The notes beneath the pieces were generated by a model. It saw only the letters and a program-made list of their open reading frames with translations. It was not told the origin of the DNA and ran no database searches. This document shows positions 12,221-29,430 of a stretch of DNA of 34,095 bases, one piece after another; the first letter of the stretch is position 1, and each line of letters opens with the position of its first letter. A program made the position numbers and the translations under genes. Origin of the DNA: Spirogloea muscicola (lineage: Eukaryota; Streptophyta; Zygnematophyceae; Spirogloeales; Spirogloeaceae); contig WELB01000003.1 of NCBI GenBank assembly GCA_009602725.1, positions 960,064 to 994,158 on the forward strand, in the 5' to 3' direction.

Positions 12221-15200
12221 ATGTGCAGCTTGCAGCCTGCGGCAGCCGCGGCGAGCCTCCTCCGCAGCTGCCTGCGCCGGTGGTGGGCGCCCGCGGCGCC
12301 GCCCGAGAGCGCGCCGCTGCTCGGCCAGCGGGCTGCGAGACACATCGACGCCGCTGTCGGCCTGACGACTGGCGCCAAGGCGCCCTCGAGGAGGTCCGCA
12401 GCGTAGCCATGGAGGCTATCTCGCCAACCTCGCGTCTATGTGTTGGCGGTGGCCGTGCCTGACGTCCTGCACAGCATCGCCGCGCTCAGGGAGGAGGGAC
12501 AGCGGACTTCTGCTGCCGCCGCCGCCACAACCGCCGTCGACTGGTCGTTCGCCCTCCGCCTGCTGCGGCTCGCACGGCTGGCACGAGCTCGAGTGAGCAC
12601 TGCAGCTATCACGCTTAAGTCTGGGCTGTAATGGGCAGGACTTGGGCATCAGAGTCGAGGCCTGCAGTGTGAGGCCTAGTCTGGACCTCTTTGACATTGG
12701 CGTGTTTGCATGTGCGCACTGGCAATGGCTTCACCATGGCTCCGGCGCTGAGCTACCGCTGACCAGTATCGTGCAAGTCATATAAGTATATGCCAAGTTA
12801 CGTCGCGCTCTCAGCTCAGTCGCAGCAAGCCCTCATCTTGATCTCCTAGTCTTAGCCCCGCAGCCTAGGCCCTTAATTTGATAGCCGGAGTGCCATTGGC
12901 TGTTGCAGGGTGCTCTGCTCCTGGTGGCGCTGGCCCTTGCCCACGTGCTGGTGACAGCGCAGGTCGGCCAGCTGGCTGGCCTCTTCTACAAGGCGCTGGT
13001 TGATGGGAACGCTTCGGTAGCTGCCCCCGATTCCAAGTGTCAAGGGCCTCAACAAAATCCCATGTCTTTGTATCTACTATGACTAAGGCCAAATTGGTCG
13101 GGGAAGCCCTGTTTTGCACGTAGATTTCCAAGTTCGGGAGCACTTGCCTTGGTGTCACTTATTTTAAATGTTGCTCGAAGCACAACCCAATCCTACTCGA
13201 AACCTGTGCAGAAGCTGACATATAGGGGACTATATTTGGTCTTGTGGGTTACACTGCAATGTCTCAGCTTCAGCATCAATATTAAAAGCCACTTCCAGGC
13301 CCTTTTCTTCATCATTAGTAGTGATGTCTCCATGGTGCTCAAGCTACTGACATACCTATGCAAACTTTGTGCAGCTCTTCTGGCGGGCGGTCAAGTGCAA
13401 CGTGCTGTGGTATGGCCTGGCGACGCTTGGGAGCGCGGCGCAGCAATGGGCGGCGGAGTGGCTGAGTCTGGGGTGGCGCCGCAACCTTACGCGAGCTGCG
13501 CATGAGGCCTACTGCCGCAATGCCGCTTTTTACCGTGTCGGCCTGCACTTCCAGGAGCTGGACAATCCCGACCAGCGCATCGCGCAGGTAGTGACTTGCA
13601 TTGAGCAGCTGCAACTTGCCCCAAGTTGGCACTTCATGACACTCGGCTTCTGGTGGAGCCATCCTCTAATCATTGCCTAGACCTCTGCAGCATTTAGTTT
13701 ACATCCCAATCAAGTGGCTTTGTTGCTGAAGCACAAACACACACAAGCTTTGTAGGAGATCAGCAGCTTCTGCAGAGGGCTGGCTGATTTTCTGGCCAAG
13801 ACAGTGGCTGCCCCGTTCATGGTCCTATACTACGGATGGTGGACCTGGTCCCGTATGGGGTGGTATGCACCTGCCACTGGAGCCCTCTTCTTCCTCATGG
13901 CTGCAGCCTTGACGAGAAGGATCATCTCGCCCATCGCCGCGCTGGTGGCCAAGCAGGACCGGCTGGAAGCTGACTTCCGAATGTCCCACTTCAGGTAGCA
14001 CCATGGGCAGCGGTAATGACTAGATGACAGACTTGCCAGCTAGCTAAAGAGAACTGCAACTTCTTCCGGGCTACTTGTTGTCAACGTTGCTGGTAATTCC
14101 ATGTAACTGTGGGGCTTCATAGGTGCAATTGTCCTGTGGACCGCCATTGTTGACTGACGAGATCCTTCACAGGCTGAAGGACTACGCAGAAGAGGTGGCT
14201 CTCCATGGCAGTGGCCTCACGGAGGCGCACTACCTGGACGCGGACCTTACGAAGGTCCTGACTAACCAGAGGCTCCTTGCAGACCGCCACTTCCTGCTCA
14301 AGCTCGCCACCGGTGCCTGTGACTATTGTGGTCTGTAACCTGGCCTATCATGCTCTTCTACTCATAGAGTGTGAGAGATCTTGTTCTTAGACCTCCTTGA
14401 CAAAATGCCGCAGGTGTACTCCTTACTAAATGTGCAGCATCCTGGTAGTACAAAGAATGGAGATGCAGGCCACCAGTGATCTTATGCTTTTGCTACTTCT
14501 AGCTGACACACCCAGCCGGTGTTCTTGTGCGACCAGGGTCTCTGTCAAGTTACATGGTGCTGGCGCTGATGATCTTTGGAGGACAAGTTGATAGGACCAT
14601 GGACAAAGGCGCCATGGCTCAGCTAATCAGCAACTCTGCTTTTGCAATACTACAGCTCATTTACAGGTAAGAAGTAGTCTCGTGGCTCTGCTGTAATTGA
14701 ACAACTCGTCTTTCGCTAGAAATTCATATCAAAAAGTCGCTGGATGGTCGGCTTCCCCATGATGCTTGTCAACGTCCTTACCAGAGTTGCCTCGTGCTTA
14801 TGAAAGAGGACAGCTTACTTGCCTTTATGGTTTGCATATAATATCTCACTTCAAGCACTGAGCGAGAGCTTCCTTTCCAGCTTCTCTCAGGTCATTGACG
14901 CTTCCAAGGTTCTCTCAGAGGTGGCCGGCGCAGCCTCAAGAGTGGCAGAGCTACTGGAAGTGTTTGACACCGTGTCAACTGATATGAAGGAGCCGTCAAC
15001 TGCTGATCAAACACTGAATCAAGCCAGCTATCCAGCTAAATCAGATGGCAGTATTGGCAGCTACGCACTGGCAATTACGGAGAACCCAGAGCTCGCCTTC
15101 AAAGGACTTCTCATTGGCCCTGTGTCTGTGATCCTCCCCGGTGGTGACGATCTCGAGTTCTCCATCCACCGATGCCCAGTGGAGCTTCTGAGCTTGCTGG

Positions 15201-17467
15201 CTGCAGTCTTTCCCGGGGTCTGCCCAGATGACATGCTCATCGTCCCAACGTTCCAGCGCAGTGCGCTCGACCTCTGCGCTGGTAACGCTGACGACCAAGA
15301 CGAAGTTGCGGAGGAGATGGACCGGATGCTGGCCGCATTCCTGAGCTTCCAGATATCAATCTGTGAGTTTCTCAGAGGAAGGGGCCACTGGGCGGACGCA
15401 ATCGACCCCAAGTCTGGGCATGCGCTTGCGCCCAGTCCAGAGCGCCCAGTTCGGAGCGGCGAGGCCTCAATTGAGGATGGACAGGTGGCAGTCCTAGAAA
15501 GCCGGCTGCCGTACAGTGAAGCATATGCAGCGAGCGTCCTGCTGGGATACGCGACGGTGGAGGCTGGCGCGTGCATCGTGACACGCCACCCAGTATTTGG
15601 CACCCGCTGCTACCCGGCGTCGCTCTTCACTACGGCTCCACTGCAGGACCTGCTCCTTGCCATTGACAAAGTTGGACCATGTAAAAGTTGCACTGGCCAA
15701 GCTCGAGCGACAGGCAGTTATGGTAATGGCGGTGGAGGATGTCATAAGGAGCGGAGTAGAAGTCACAGCAAACCGGATATGTGCGACAGCGGATCTGCAT
15801 CTGAAGATCTGGCCCCTAAAGACCGTCCTCCAGATACAGAGCCACTTTTAGGAGAAGCAAGATGCAATCTGGAAGCCTCAAGTCAACCCATCCTCCTGGG
15901 GATTCATCGCTTGACCTTGTGTGCACCCAGGTCCGATCTAGTTCTCATTAAAGACTTATCTGTTACCGTGGCTGCTAGGAGATCCTTGCTTGTGATGGGA
16001 GACAGTGGGGCCGGCAAGTCCAGCCTCGTTCGCGCCATTTCCCGCCTGTGGCCGCTTGCGGCAGGTCCTATTTCTTACTTGCTCACCTGTTGCCCTTGAA
16101 GCACCACTGCAAGTTAAAACCCACCAGAATGACCCAACAAAATTAAGCATACCTAATTCATAAGCTATGCTTGTGCTATGGTGGCTGCATGACGTTATCG
16201 AGCTCTTTCTGTTTGAAATCTCACCTTCCATTCTGTGCAGCGCGCCAAGTCTAGTACCAATGTGCACCTCTGAATCGTCACAAGAGCTTATACTGCTTGT
16301 ACTGTGTAATTGCCATCAAACTGAGCTTCTTCTTGACAGGCACGGTAAAGAGCACCCCTGGCCTCCGGACCTTGTACGTCACGCAGAGGCCCCTGCTTTG
16401 CCGGGGCGGCCTTGCTGCTCAGATCCTGTACCCAAGGAAGCCTGACTCAATGTCATTCAATGAGGGTACTGCTTTGTGGTTGGAGCACCTCCTCGAGATG
16501 GTGGGCCTCCAGGACCTACTCCGCCTCACTGGCGGCGATTGGAATGTAAGACTCAGATAGGTGACAGCAAACTATGTCATTTGTTCAAGCATTTGCTCAC
16601 ATGTGAGCCACAGATTCTCTTCTGTTAGCATGGGACATAGTATGCATGCATAACCCATACACCATATATGAATGTTGTATGCACACAGATGTGCCAGGAC
16701 CTCAAAAGACCCGGCAAATTGCATGAATGCACAAACAAGTCCTTGCTGTGCTTTTTGCGGTGTCTTGCTTAATTGGGTTAGAGATTCATCTTGAAGCTTG
16801 CTGTGAGCTGATGTCATGATATACCTCAGGTACCTCTTGACTGGAGCCGGGAGCTGTCGCCAGGAGAGCAGCAGAGCCTGGTGCTTGCTCGGGTCCTGTG
16901 CCACCGCCCGCAGCTTGCCATACTGGACGAGGCAACGACCGCCATAAGCCAGCAGGCAGAGGTTGGCTGCTACCGTCTTAGATGCTTCCTGTTGAGAAAT
17001 AATATGTATACCATGATGTCCGGCGTCTTCTACTCACTCTGCTTCTACTTATTCTACTTCTCCTTCTTCTACTTTGAAAAGCATAACTCAGGAGCTGAAC
17101 AATACTCTTGCTTGTGGTAAGACAAAAGAATTCATCATATCGGTCCTTACTACACTACCTCGTAATGTCTGTATGAGCGACAATGACCAATGCCAGACTC
17201 TGTTGGCAGTTTTCTATTTCCTCGACAAGCTGTGGCCATGAGGGCTCTATTTGCTCATAGTCACAGCAATGTGGGCTCTCTTTGTGCTCACAGGCACAAT
17301 TCTATGGGCACCTCTTGGCAAGTGGTACGTGCTTCGTGAGCTTGTCTCATGGCAGCTCGCTGGAAAAGTGGCACCACACTGTGCTCACGGTGCTGGGCGA
17401 CGGGCGGGGTGGCTGGCGCCTTCGGCCATCGACCAACGCCCCTTCAGACAGCTTCCACGCCTCTTGA
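12221..17467 (+). CDS. ABCD4-type half ABC transporter with an embedded MMADHC (CblD)-like domain
   Basis: Eleven exons: 12221-12393 and 12475-12592 (tentative), then 12909-13016, 13375-13587, 13756-13994, 14173-14330, 14516-14666, 14881-16064, 16340-16545, 16830-16961 and 17294-17467 (TGA). Phases fit at every junction, giving about 951 residues against about 606 for human ABCD4. The membrane domain follows ABCD4 throughout: hydrophobic GALLLVALALAHVLV, the LDNPDQRIAQ loop motif, QDRLEADFRMSHFR, LADRHFLLKLATGA and SFSQVIDASKVLSEVAG. The ATPase domain has Walker A GDSGAGKSS (15998-16021), the ABCD4-style signature LSPGEQQ (16854-16874), Walker B LAILDEAT and the switch His in SLSHGSS (17348-17350). 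Human ABCD4 sits in the lysosomal membrane and, with LMBRD1, is needed for cobalamin release to the cytosol. Between the two domains, in one open frame, lies an MMADHC-like domain (15107-15679). The start ATG and first intron are the weakest part; the other exons are firm. Confidence 0.9.
15107..15679 (+). other. MMADHC/CblD-like domain inside the ABC transporter
   Basis: About 190 residues align in order with the C-terminal (nitroreductase-like fold) domain of MMADHC: LEFSIHRCPVELLSLL with a following VFPGV; MLIVPTFQRS (compare the T-x-x-TVTQKT strand); FLSFQISICEFLRGRGHWAD-AIDPKSG (compare GAKEIC-x-ALR-x-EG-x-WADFIDPSSG); PYSEAYAASVLLGYA; GACIVTRHPVFGTRCYPAS with LFTTAP (compare GCCKVIRH-x-LWGTH and IFTNA). 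It sits within exon 14881-16064, in frame with the membrane domain upstream and Walker A downstream. A Ser/Gly/Cys-rich linker of about 70 residues separates it from the ATPase. MMADHC is the adaptor that, with MMACHC, directs cytosolic cobalamin to its target enzymes. Of the two adjacent cysteines before the V-x-RH motif in the human protein only one is present here (15572-15574). Confidence 0.88.
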
Positions 17468-19728: not shown

Positions 19729-22700
19729 TCAAATCGACTCGGGACAGGTTGCTCGTCCTCTCATTGAGACTCTGCTGACTTGTATGGGCACCTCCATCTG
19801 CATGACATTCCAGCCCTGGAGCACAAGCCTCGGCACCTGGCCATCCTTCACACGGAACGTCACCCTGACATCTCGCCGCTCTCCGGGCACAAGGGATAGG
19901 TAGTTGTCTGAGTAGCGCACGGGCAAAATCCTGCCGTCTCCCAAGGTGTCACTGCCGGCAGGTCCCCTGGCAAAAACGGCCAGCTGAAGCCAGAAGGCTA
20001 CGCAAGGCGAGCTGTCATCGTCAGCCTCCTCGGTGCTTACTCGTCCACTCGCTTCGGCAGGCGTGTACGGCGCCAAACGCTGCCTGTGATACTCAATAAA
20101 TCGAGCATGCTCATCCTCGATCGCTGCCTCAGTGGACGGACGTGTGCAGCCACCATGGCAGACCAGGGGCACCAATTCCTGCGATGCAGTGCGCCCCCTT
20201 TTTTCACATGTATTCTCGAGGGACACAGCAACCTCGTACTCATCAGCATTGACGCTCACAGTCGCGATAGCGGACACTTTGGCCTTTCTCTCTCTGAACA
20301 TGCCCTGCAGGGCAGTGTAATCAGCCCCCTCCTTGTGCAGCCAATAGAAGTTGCTCGACAGACTGTGGCCCTTGGAGGTCTCAAGAGCCAAGCTGAGGAA
20401 GTACACAGGGCTGACCCCAATACACGAGCAACTTGGCACCTGCACAAGGACAAAAGTGGACCGGGCAACCTTCATCATCTTCAGCACTCTGCAAGAGCTT
20501 GCAAAGTACACAGGCTATTGATGTGCATTACGCAGCCCAGCAAGCTGAGGGCTAGTCGACTAAGTCTGAAGCATCTCACAACTAATGGCAGGTGTCCATT
20601 CAATGCATTCTTCACATCAATTGACTAGCACATTATTGTGTATTGTAATACTAGTTCCACATGTGCTTGCTAAGGTGCAAGCTTCTGCGCAGTCATTTCT
20701 CCACCCCAATGTAACTCCACACATCTCCTGGGAGATCCTTGAGCTGGTGTAGGGTGGTAAATCAATGTCCTCGTACATTTCTCCGCTGGGGCAGGAACCA
20801 TCGAGATTGAATATGTTAGTCCGCACTTTGGCACTCCTCAGATGTTGTCGCGTTGTGTTGATGACCTGAACAGATACCCAAGTGACATTAGCTGGTGGCC
20901 CCTTTGCAGTATGATGCTCTTCAACCACAGGCCATTGGGCGGCTTTCCTTGTCATACATCCTGTCACAGACATCCTCTTCCAAATTAGAGTGACAGCTCT
21001 CCTTGTGACGCAAAGAAGACTTGAGTCATGAATAAAGAGTGGTAAAAGTGACAATCTTCATGGGCATAACATCAGACTAACATTGTACCTCTACAGCGCA
21101 GTTATGAGGGTTGTACTGGATATGAATGGGCTCCGCTGCAAGTTTGGTACCAAAGAAGCCACCAGTCACATCAAGAAGCGAGTCATAGAGCTGTCCTCTC
21201 AAACCTGGCCAAGGATTCTGGGTCTTCCAGATGAGTAGACCAGTGTACGAGGTCCACATGCGAGAATTCCATGACTCAATCAATGCTCGGTATTGTACAT
21301 AGTTCACCAACTGTGCCTGCACGTCAAATTAACACGATCTTTAGCCAAGAGGGACAAGCTGTAGCGCTACAGGTAAGAAACGTTTTGCAGAGGTTGCTTC
21401 TTTGTCCATAACAGGGTGCAAGAAAGTGTGAGGAGAGCAACAGATGTGATCTCCAATGTATACCCTCATACTGTACTGACAAACTTGAGATGCTCTTGCA
21501 TGCAAATTAGAGGAAAATCTCTAATGCTATACGACATAGAGCCATAGCAAATAAGGCAGGACTGACCTTCTCACAAAAATCATCAAGGTCTGCATAAGAA
21601 CCATACTGAGTTATCTGATTGGGCACCACATTTGGTTGTGAATAAGGAATATAAGTGTGTTGCGTCCATGTGTCGTTTGGCACCTCAATCTCTCCTCCTC
21701 CTGGCTGTGCCATGATGACAGGAGGGCTCCATGCTTCGATAGGCATGGTCGCTCTCACTGTGGCTGCTACTGGCACACCCACGGAGCCTACAGTGCATAC
21801 AAAACAAGGCAGCTTGTCAGCCCTCTCCAGACCTTGCGGGTGCACTAGTGCATGCGTGTCGTACATAACAACAATGTGAGTTACACATGGGTTTTGGATT
21901 CACCAATCTCGGGGTTAAAGGCATACGGGTAGAAGTTGTCCTTAAAATATGTTTCTGGTTCCTGGATTGTGTATGGCCCATCGCGGAAGTCCCCATTCCC
22001 CTTTGCAAAGCCTCCCCAAAGAGAGCCCTGGATGTAGATCCTGCTGCCATCCAAGCACCTGCTGGGGTCATCCTTCTCACCGTGCTGACTACCACAAATG
22101 GATGACGTGCCTGATGAGTGATCTGGTTGACGGTGTGCCAGATGGCAGCATGTCCATGTTGAGGAAGGTAAGGCAGAAGGTGGTGCTTCATTGGAGGTCA
22201 GCCCAGTGGTCCGATCTTGTGAAGAAACCGTTTCGTTTGAGGGCATCTCACTTTCTGCCTCTATATTCTTGTCCACGATTTTCTTGTGGGAGCTACCATG
22301 CAAGTGCAACCAGCTTAGCAGGGCGTCATTGATATTCTTTGCTGGATGCTGCTCATTCCCTCCGACCCACAGAGCAAGGCTGGCATGGTTTCTGAGCATC
22401 TTGATTGTGTCTTCGGGGAATTGGAGGAACATGGCGTGATCAAGTGGCCAACTTGACTCTGATGGCGGAATGCCTCTCCCATTGCAATCTCCGGTGATCC
22501 AGAACTCCTGCCACACCTGATGACCCGAAGCAGAGCAGGCAATTGAGAACCTACCCACAAGCAGACAGGATGGACAAGGTATAGCCTGCAACGATCACCT
22601 AGATCCACCTCATCGATCATTCATTTGTAGGCAACCAATGGGATGGACTGCTTGATGAAAAGTATGTCTCTGTCTCAATGGCAAGGAGCTTGTAACCCAA

Positions 22701-26485: not shown

Positions 26486-26548
26486 AGGCGCAAGAACTAC
26501 ACAGCTATGCCAAGTGGCTACAGCACATGGCCACATCAGCTCGAAAAT

Positions 26549-27437
26549 TTCGTGTATTTGAAACAAACATAGGCCAATGGCCAAGTACAAAGGCAAGCAA
26601 GCACATCTAAATATCTACATAACCTACAGCAGGTTGACCCGCTCAATATCCACGGGTCAAAACATAAAGGTCGCTAACCGATGCATGAATACTAGATGTC
26701 AGGTACGAAGCCCTTTTGTCACCAACTAGAGCTCGCCCAGCTTTCTGATGCAAGGCATTAGCCTGAGCTCGCTGCAAACAGGCCGAAACTCGACGTCGCA
26801 AGAACGACAAATATGCAGCTGGCAAGCCCATTTCAGCCGGAAACACATCTGCACGTCGTGTGTAGCCTAGATTGGCAATGTTCTGGAGGAGGGTGTGAAA
26901 TCGAGGACCCAGACAGCCATAGATGTCGATTGCCGCTGGCAGGAGCTGGTCGCATCGAGGGTACTCGGAGTAGTGCTGCATCTTCCTTTGTTCTGCACTG
27001 CCCACTGCGTGACCAGCGATGTGTGTTGACGCTGGACCTTAATACGCCTCAGTGACAACCACGTCGACCAGGGCCCGTGGTCCTCCACCAGGTTGTACGC
27101 CCACAGTGTCAAGTGTGCGGCGATGATGACGTCCCTGTGCGTCCGTGGTGATGGGCATGATGTTGTTGACTTCCCCGACCGCCCGGTAGCCGGCGTCGCG
27201 CATCAAGCCCGCGAGGGCATCGCGAAGGAGGTTGTGGATGCCCACCACTTCTGGTCCAGTGGAACATCTCAGCATGTGAGTGGCGAGCTCAGCACCCTCT
27301 GCACGGAAGCCACACTCGCACTGGCGCACCCCAATCAGGCAGTTGGGTGGGAGGCCGAGGAAGAGTTGAAGCGACGTCCGAAAGGCCTCGGAGCTGATGC
27401 TGAAGGCGTTGGCGACGGCGTGAGAGGTAGGCCACAT
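26549..27437 (-). mobile_element. LINE copy b: endonuclease-like domain, C-terminal tail and 3' UTR
   Basis: This is the longest LINE copy here. The minus-strand frame 27437-27039 reads FRTSLQLFLGLPPNC, then a C-x-C...H-x4-C finger (QCECGFRAEGAELATHMLRC), NLLRDALAGLMRDAGYRAVG and RRTLDTVGVQPGGGPRALVD-VVVT. This finger plus D...D arrangement is that of the restriction-like endonuclease region C-terminal to the reverse transcriptase in R2-like and Dualen/RandI-type LINEs. The tail frame 27005-26643 (YPRCDQLLPAAIDIYGCLGP ... LHQKAGRALVG ... VLTRGY-stop) is shifted relative to it, so the copy is broken. The 3' end is AAATACACGAAATT. No reverse transcriptase remains. Confidence 0.75.
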
Positions 27438-28260: not shown

Positions 28261-28364
28261 ATCGAAGTCGGGCTGCTCAGCTCTCTGTCCTTGGGTCACG
28301 CAAGTTCACGCTCGACGGCCACCGAGCCCCGAGCCGGATCATTGCCAAGGCGGACGTCTGATCA

Positions 28365-28440
28365 GAAGAAAGTGCTCGCCCATTGAGAATAGGGGCTGGA
28401 ACAACCAGCCCGAAAAAGAATGAACAGAGTACGAGAAGGG
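28365..28440 (-). repeat. hairpin repeat unit, minus orientation
   Basis: On the minus strand it reads GTACTCTGTTCATTCTTTTT, CGGGCTGGTTGTTCCAGCCC, CTATTCTCAATGGGCGAGCA, with complementary GGCTGG/CCAGCC arms and the tail seen at 6.25 kb. Confidence 0.6.
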
Positions 28441-28559
28441 GGCCAGGGGAAGCGCTAAGTAACAAGCGTCTGATCGGGCTTCACTTTGCTGCCTGGCCGA
28501 CGTCCTTTGGCAGCCGTTTGGCCTCGGGGAGCGGGAAGGCCAACCGCCGGGCTGGGCAC

Positions 28560-29002: not shown

Positions 29003-29430
29003 TTCGTGTATTTGAAACAAACGAAGGCCAAATGGCCAAGTACAAAGGCAAGCACATCTGAGACCTATAAAACCTACAGCAGAATGACCCGCTCAGTAAC
29101 CGCGGGTCAAAACATGAAGGTCGCTAATCGATGCCTGAATACTAGATGTCGGATAAGAAGCCCTTCTGCCACCAACTAGAGCTCGCCCAGCTTTCTGGTG
29201 CAAGGCATTAGCCTGGGCACGCTGCAGACAGGCCGAAACTCGTCGTCGCAAGAAAGACAGATATGCAGCTTGCAAAAGCACATCTCAGCCGGGAACACAT
29301 CTGCTCGTCGTGTGTAGCCTAGATTGGCCATGTTGTGGAGGAGGGTGTGGAAACGCGGACCCAGACAGCCATAAGTGTCAACTGCAGCTGGCAGGAGCTG
29401 ATCGCACCGGGGGTAGTCGGAGTAGTGCAT
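29003..29430 (-). mobile_element. LINE copy c: C-terminal tail and 3' UTR, 5'-truncated
   Basis: The minus-strand frame from about 29427 reads HYSDYPRCDQLLPAAVDTYG, FHTLLHNMANLGYTRRADVF, LHICLSCDDE after a frameshift, and resumes as YLSFLRRRVSACLQRAQANA to LTRGY-stop near 29093. It matches copy b closely and has the same 3' end (AAATACACGAA). The match stops near 29430, just before the CpG-rich start of the next gene. Confidence 0.75.

Follow-up and report, generated by a model that had tools for sequence, protein, structure and literature searches.

ABCD4 is an ATP-driven half-transporter which, in animals, exports cobalamin (vitamin B12) from the lysosome to the cytosol. To our knowledge, little is established about how B12 passes from this exporter of the lysosome to the chaperones of the cytosol. 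The human transporter works as a homodimer (PMC8113721), needs LMBD1 as an escort for its lysosomal delivery and is described as being without accessory domains (PMC4960490). In human MMADHC, Cys261 provides the cobalt-sulfur (Co-S) ligand to cobalt and the thiolate of the vicinal Cys262 starts the release to methionine synthase (PMC12272874), while mutation of Thr182 or Trp189 severely lowers the binding of MMACHC (PMC4705923). Here we analyse a stretch of 34,095 nucleotides from the alga Spirogloea muscicola (contig WELB01000003.1, positions 960,064 to 994,158; 'the window') which carries a gene joining both proteins: an MMADHC (CblD-type) domain is inserted in what would be the cytosolic linker of an ABCD4-type transporter, between the membrane domain and the ATPase.

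The fused gene and its central exon

The ABCD4-MMADHC fusion is confirmed at the DNA level. A model of 11 exons with GT-AG introns (12221-17467, plus strand; ATG at 12221, stop at 17467) encodes 942 residues and is free of internal stops. Its core is the open frame 14804-16099 (431 residues), in which the last part of the ABCD4 membrane domain, the MMADHC domain and the Walker A region follow one another in frame. A Pfam search of this frame returned PF10229 (MMADHC) in two stretches (E=5.6e-16, 59.5 bits, cut-off 27), as well as PF00005 (ABC_tran) over the Walker A region (25 bits). Among solved structures the frame matched MMADHC (5a4r, E 1.1e-11, stretches 117-208 and 247-281) and, apart from these stretches and in order, ABCD4 (24ve, E 2e-11, at 366-426). 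The ABCD4 stretch ahead of the insert (23-57) is weak alone, with an i-Evalue of 8.2; with the exons joined, the membrane domain is clearly ABCD4-like throughout, and the insert occupies the position of the human ABCD4 linker 355-387. Given the E-values and the conservation of the gene in three copies, a chance origin of the match is excluded. The PF10229 search, named beforehand in a first-pass annotation of the window as a possible refutation of the fusion, thus came out well above its cut-off.

Exon 8 (14881-16064) comprises the membrane-domain end, linker 1 (14960-15058, 33 codons), the nitroreductase-like MMADHC domain (15059-15667, 203 codons), linker 2 (15668-15889, 74 codons) and the Walker A region, with GDSGAGKSS at 15998-16024 under the ABC_tran match. 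The first-pass annotation had called it one continuous exon of 395 codons; it is uninterrupted, and its 1184 nt amount to 394.7 codons. For the MMADHC domain, further PF10229 scores of 53.8 and 50.1 bits and alignments to 5a4r (5.5e-13) and 9mrs_D (5e-10) support its membership of the family. What is present is the C-terminal folded domain, with the best Pfam stretch at 123-211 of the 272 profile positions, aligned to human MMADHC residues 146-233 and 252-284. The domain had initially been described as 'full', which holds for this folded part; the N-terminal part is lacking.

Three copies of the fusion

The genome searched comprises 153 Mb in 471 contigs. PF10229 matches lie at five places: three long fused frames (431, 445 and 459 residues) and two frames of 75 residues. 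When the exon positions of the window gene are transferred by alignment to the other two fused loci, on contigs C315 and C100, they give proteins of 943 and 944 residues, and the architecture is intact at all three loci, whose copies all look functional. On either side of the fused gene, the flanks on C315 and C100 follow the window in collinear order, with long matches of 81-90% DNA identity, and we therefore read the three loci as homeologous segments and not as dispersed copies. An assembly chimera was considered and is ruled out, as the fusion recurs at three loci whose contigs differ and whose flanks are collinear. Most of the genes examined were present in two or three diverged copies; together with the collinear flanks of the fused gene, this suggests a triplicated or allopolyploid genome. 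A search for relatives in other organisms, made over viral contigs, prokaryote genome contigs and phage records, gave none.

Selection on the fused protein

The ratio of nonsynonymous to synonymous substitution (dN/dS) was estimated by the pairwise NG86 method for the three pairs among the fused copies. It is 0.07-0.09 in the membrane domain, 0.22-0.26 in the MMADHC domain (95% bootstrap range 0.11-0.49) and 0.22-0.23 in the ATPase. The values are higher in linker 1 (0.25-0.70), in the N-terminus (0.65-0.85) and in linker 2 (0.93-1.38), and the excess of linker 2 over the MMADHC domain is significant by permutation in each pair (P 0.008, 0.0005 and 0.023). Variable sites at codon positions 1, 2 and 3 number 14, 15 and 44 in the MMADHC part (P 6.6e-6) and 18, 18 and 10 in linker 2. 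By these measures the fused MMADHC domain is under purifying selection at an ATPase-like level, and linker 2 is evolving almost freely, near neutrality. A pseudogene or decayed insert is ruled out by the intact frames and by dN/dS.

Exon 8 contains no indel in the three copies, against 63 gap events in the 2331 nt of nine introns. In linker 2 alone six indels would be expected and none was observed (P 0.0025).

The transporter as a probable ABCD4 orthologue

The full-length fused protein scores 299 bits against ABCD4 (24ve), compared with 183 for ABCD3, 173 for ABCD1 and 114 for 6tqe; the single half-transporters compared are those listed with E-values of at most 1e-20. By these bit scores it lies closer to ABCD4 than to ABCD1-3 or bacterial relatives. 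For the double transporter ABCD1 of plants the total is 357 bits, which are however spread over four stretches of 81-107 bits. The fused protein carries ABC_membrane_2 followed by the ABC ATPase on one half-size chain. By eye, the ATPase motifs GDSGAGKSS, LSPGEQ, LAILDEAT and SLSHG, which we take to be Walker A, signature, Walker B and H-loop, are intact in all three copies. We infer that the gene is an ABCD4 orthologue; cobalamin transport and the compartment would follow from orthology only. The natural ABCD4-MMADHC chain of the first-pass annotation, with the adaptor in the linker before the ATPase, is borne out by the ABCD4 score and the PF10229 match.

No unfused ABCD4 was seen when the fused membrane domain was used as a query over the genome, since 21 of the 25 matches (E up to 0.01) fell in the three fused genes and the other four reached 21-25 bits; copies in gaps or with weak matches could escape such a search.

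Standalone MMADHC genes

The first-pass annotation had asked for a check that the genome holds no separate MMADHC gene. It does hold such genes: standalone genes lie at two loci, on contigs C26 and C11, and their spliced domains reach PF10229 E-values of 6.9e-28 and 1.4e-22 (as a single exon, the 75-residue frame on C11 reaches 25.8 bits, below the cut-off). The longest DNA match between the two shows 84% identity, with a dN/dS of 0.22 (bootstrap 0.09-0.49), and both keep the Cys-Cys pair. None of the 46 ABC_membrane_2 matches in the genome lies on C26 or C11, and the standalone genes are thus unfused as far as can be seen. Beside the standalone gene on C26, a frame at about 600-900 on the plus strand resembles by eye an LptB-type ABC ATPase.

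Over the domain, identity between the fused and standalone proteins is 38-41%; with human MMADHC, either kind shares 32-37% over the aligned blocks. With these values the duplication looks old, and a recent retrocopy of the standalone gene is unsupported. The standalone domain is interrupted by two phase-0 introns whereas the fused domain is intronless, so an ancient retroposition or intron loss may have occurred.

Residues kept and lost in the fused domain

At the positions of human Cys261-Cys262 the fused domain has Ala-Cys (15569-15574). The first position is alanine in the three fused copies and cysteine in the two standalone copies; Cys262 is kept in the fused copies. The register here rests on the gapless alignment to 9mrs_D 252-284 and on a clearer gapless match to the standalone proteins. 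Because Cys261 is replaced in every fused copy, it is unlikely that the fused domain carries B12 by the known Co-S chemistry.

Vitamin B12 in this alga

The genome encodes the B12-dependent methionine synthase METH (two matches), the PF01717 domain of the B12-independent METE (two contigs) and methylmalonyl-CoA mutase (MUT; three contigs, C12, C30 and C95). Since all three are encoded, B12 is usable in this alga but perhaps not essential for methionine. LMBR1-family genes lie on three contigs and are not assignable to LMBRD1, and a protein fragment of this family found no match among the solved structures. Of the partner genes which the first-pass annotation had looked to find, METH and MUT are therefore in place, while the LMBR1-family genes stay unassigned and MMACHC was not found (see below).

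A survey covering 1666 strains of plants and algae describes B12 uptake and transport inside algae as little known (PMC11439496). There, hornwort CblC, CblD and CblJ group with those of other Viridiplantae, CblF (LMBD1) is almost confined to dinoflagellates among algae, and methylmalonyl-CoA mutase is called absent from chlorophytes bar sporadic occurrences, whereas the present genome encodes it on three contigs. According to the survey's authors, the branches of eukaryotes may differ in how they traffic B12 (PMC11439496). Putative homologues of ABCD4 and LMBD1 have been reported in Chlamydomonas by BLAST (PMC10828217).

A possible role for the fused domain

If the fused protein homodimerises like human ABCD4, two MMADHC domains would sit where each pump opens to the cytosol. 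The fused domain might then keep close to this exit the soluble machinery that processes or uses B12, be it an MMACHC-like protein, the standalone MMADHC or METH. It would not itself carry B12 by the known Co-S bond, and the loading chemistry would be performed by the standalone MMADHC with its Cys-Cys pair. We give this tethered docking or relay platform an even chance, and prefer it both to a structural or escort role and to a carrier role with another ligand. A more far-reaching version is put forward tentatively: a tethered CblD free of the Co-S ligand could capture processing or client proteins at the membrane, could let scarce B12 pass from the vacuole to the enzymes while bypassing the bulk cytosol, and could take over the recruiting or escort role of LMBD1.

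Several observations weigh against a docking platform on one continuous chain. MMACHC was not found in the genome, either by family or by the human protein, in searches that had no positive control, and its absence is not claimed. The positions of Thr182 and Trp189 are serine and glycine in the three fused domains; they are alanine and phenylalanine in the standalone copies, and position 189 lies beside a four-residue gap. These two residues therefore form a weak test, and the docking of MMACHC by the fused domain is not clearly conserved. The half of the hairpin which contains position 261 is weak when aligned to human MMADHC alone (i-Evalue 0.35 to 29). As to the continuity of the chain, neutrality by itself could well leave the linkers free of stops (P 0.54 and 0.15), and the absence of indels from linker 1, taken singly, does not reach significance (P 0.07). 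Furthermore, 30 conserved in-phase GT/AG pairs (6 GT, 22 AG), whose presence is expected by chance, could excise the MMADHC domain. At none of the six GT sites do all three copies show a GTRNG donor; since only 3 of the 10 accepted donors of the window gene fit GTRNG, this too is a weak test. Exon-skipped isoforms may exist beside the fused form.

The fused domain may no longer handle B12 at all and may instead serve targeting, dimer stability or gating, for instance as a substitute for the escort LMBD1. The loss of Cys261 and Trp189 is in keeping with such a role, as is the motif PE[SN]APLL in the N-terminus of all three copies, which resembles an acidic di-leucine sorting signal. Human ABCD4 relies on LMBD1 for its lysosomal delivery (PMC4960490), and LMBD1 is reported almost only from dinoflagellates among algae (PMC11439496). 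However, LMBD1 need not be missing here, because homologues are reported in Chlamydomonas (PMC10828217) and the present genome has LMBR1-family genes that stay unclassified. A mere spacer, moreover, would not need its codons held at a dN/dS of about 0.24. We regard a role unrelated to B12 as rather improbable.

In a further reading, a true hand-over, the fused domain would take cobalamin straight from the exporter by means of Cys262 or a different ligand and deliver it to METH or MMACHC; the first-pass annotation had proposed that B12 could be handed over on exit. The placement of the adaptor in the linker before the ATPase stands, and the domain is under purifying selection on what would be the cytosolic side. 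Cys262 and the surrounding hairpin are kept (VTRHPVFGT in the window, VIRHSLWGT in human), and METH is encoded. Direct capture is nevertheless weakened: human Co-S chemistry uses Cys261 (PMC12272874), which is alanine in every fused copy, and the standalone paralogues have Cys-Cys. Hand-over by the fused domain itself is accordingly judged unlikely. Lastly, the fusion could be a gene-model artefact: the MMADHC stretch would be intronic or belong to another gene, leaving a mature transporter free of it. This reading could draw on the GT/AG pairs and the neutral expectation for open linkers but is very improbable. In all three copies the frame runs without indel from the membrane domain through Walker A, and in the transporter frame the MMADHC part has a third-position bias and a dN/dS of about 0.24. 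A gene apart from the transporter would, moreover, require a start and a stop of its own, and the frame has no stop there.

Remaining exons and neighbouring features

The other exons complete the transporter on the plus strand. Exon 1 (12221-12402) encodes an N-terminal extension containing PESAPLLGQ, with an open frame and a GT donor in all three copies; PE[SN]APLLGQ is kept in all three inside an otherwise fast-changing N-terminus. Exon 2 (12490-12592) has its AG acceptor and GTGAGC donor in all three copies. The least certain parts of the model are the first intron (12403-12489, 87 nt), which is tentative, and the start codon at 12221; several of the accepted donors are not textbook sites. 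Exon 3 (12909-13016) would supply the first segment of the ABCD4-type membrane domain by the exon model and structure alignment. The domain continues through exon 4 (13375-13587; PF06472, ABC_membrane_2, E 5.7e-14), exon 5 (13756-13994; PF06472, E 2e-13), exon 6 (14173-14330; PF06472, E 2.7e-4, 20.9 bits, alone below the cut-off of 24.4) and exon 7 (14537-14666), which lies inside the part of the protein aligned to ABCD4 (residues 73-409). Exon 9 (16340-16545), placed in the ATPase domain by the exon model and structure alignment, presumably holds the Q-loop region; the frame around it gave no Pfam match alone. Exon 10 (16830-16961; PF00005, E 1.6e-6) carries the signature LSPGEQ and Walker B LAILDEAT, and exon 11 (17294-17467) contributes the H-loop region and the stop in the exon model. 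A NCBIfam search returned only ABC-transporter models, each below its own cut-off. Hydropathy gave no clean separation of membrane segments from buried strands and was not used.

Adjoining the fused gene on the opposite strand, and inside the collinear flanks, is a glycoside hydrolase gene whose exo-beta-D-glucosaminidase Ig-fold domain lies at 19729-20511 on the minus strand (PF18368, E 1e-15). Three segments (26545-26974, 29003-29426 and 28363-28467) match out-of-order places in the flanks on C315 and C100 and are probably dispersed repeats. Elsewhere in the genome, intron-split RuBisCO small-subunit genes lie on four contigs (8 exon matches) and chlorophyll-binding proteins account for 68 matches. 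Both fit the genome of a green alga, a nuclear small-subunit gene being a mark of the green lineage. One of the chlorophyll-binding-protein matches (C393:12575-12685, minus strand) sits inside an unusually long open frame of 3889 codons.

Comparison with known systems

Gene fusion can hint at a physical link between the roles of separate proteins, a concept known as the 'Rosetta stone'. In this sense, a natural fusion of exporter and CblD suggests that the export and chaperone steps are physically coupled, and makes such coupling testable within a single protein. If confirmed, the docking and loading roles of MMADHC would be split over two genes, one for a tethered CblD that lacks the Co-S ligand and one for a free CblD with its Cys-Cys pair; if true, the arrangement would amount to a transporter in physical union with a protein of B12 trafficking, giving the vitamin exporter a chaperone module of its own. 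Among the literature matches listed (openly licensed papers, by titles and abstract openings) no description of an ABCD4-MMADHC fusion was found, and the text of PMC11439496 makes no mention of chimeras, domain architecture or MMADHC. Both families are known; what would be new is that they are joined covalently and that the roles of CblD appear to be split.

Compared with ABCD4 (CblJ), the lysosomal cobalamin exporter, residues 73-409 of the fused protein align to ABCD4 12-354, the ATPase aligns too, and Walker A, the LSPGE signature, Walker B and the H-loop histidine are all present. It differs from human ABCD4 in that the linker at about 355-387 is swapped for about 300 residues holding the MMADHC domain. 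Compared with MMADHC, the insert is the same folded domain, as its profile match and its alignments to 5a4r, 5cuz and 9mrs_D both show, and it keeps the [IV]DPxSG motif and the GxCxVxxH hairpin. In contrast to this cytosolic B12 chaperone, it sits inside a membrane transporter without the N-terminal part, and has alanine for Cys261 and glycine for Trp189 in all three copies. With the standalone MMADHC proteins of the same genome it shares the PF10229 family and an identity of 38-41% over the domain, but it differs from them by insertions of four and about twenty residues.

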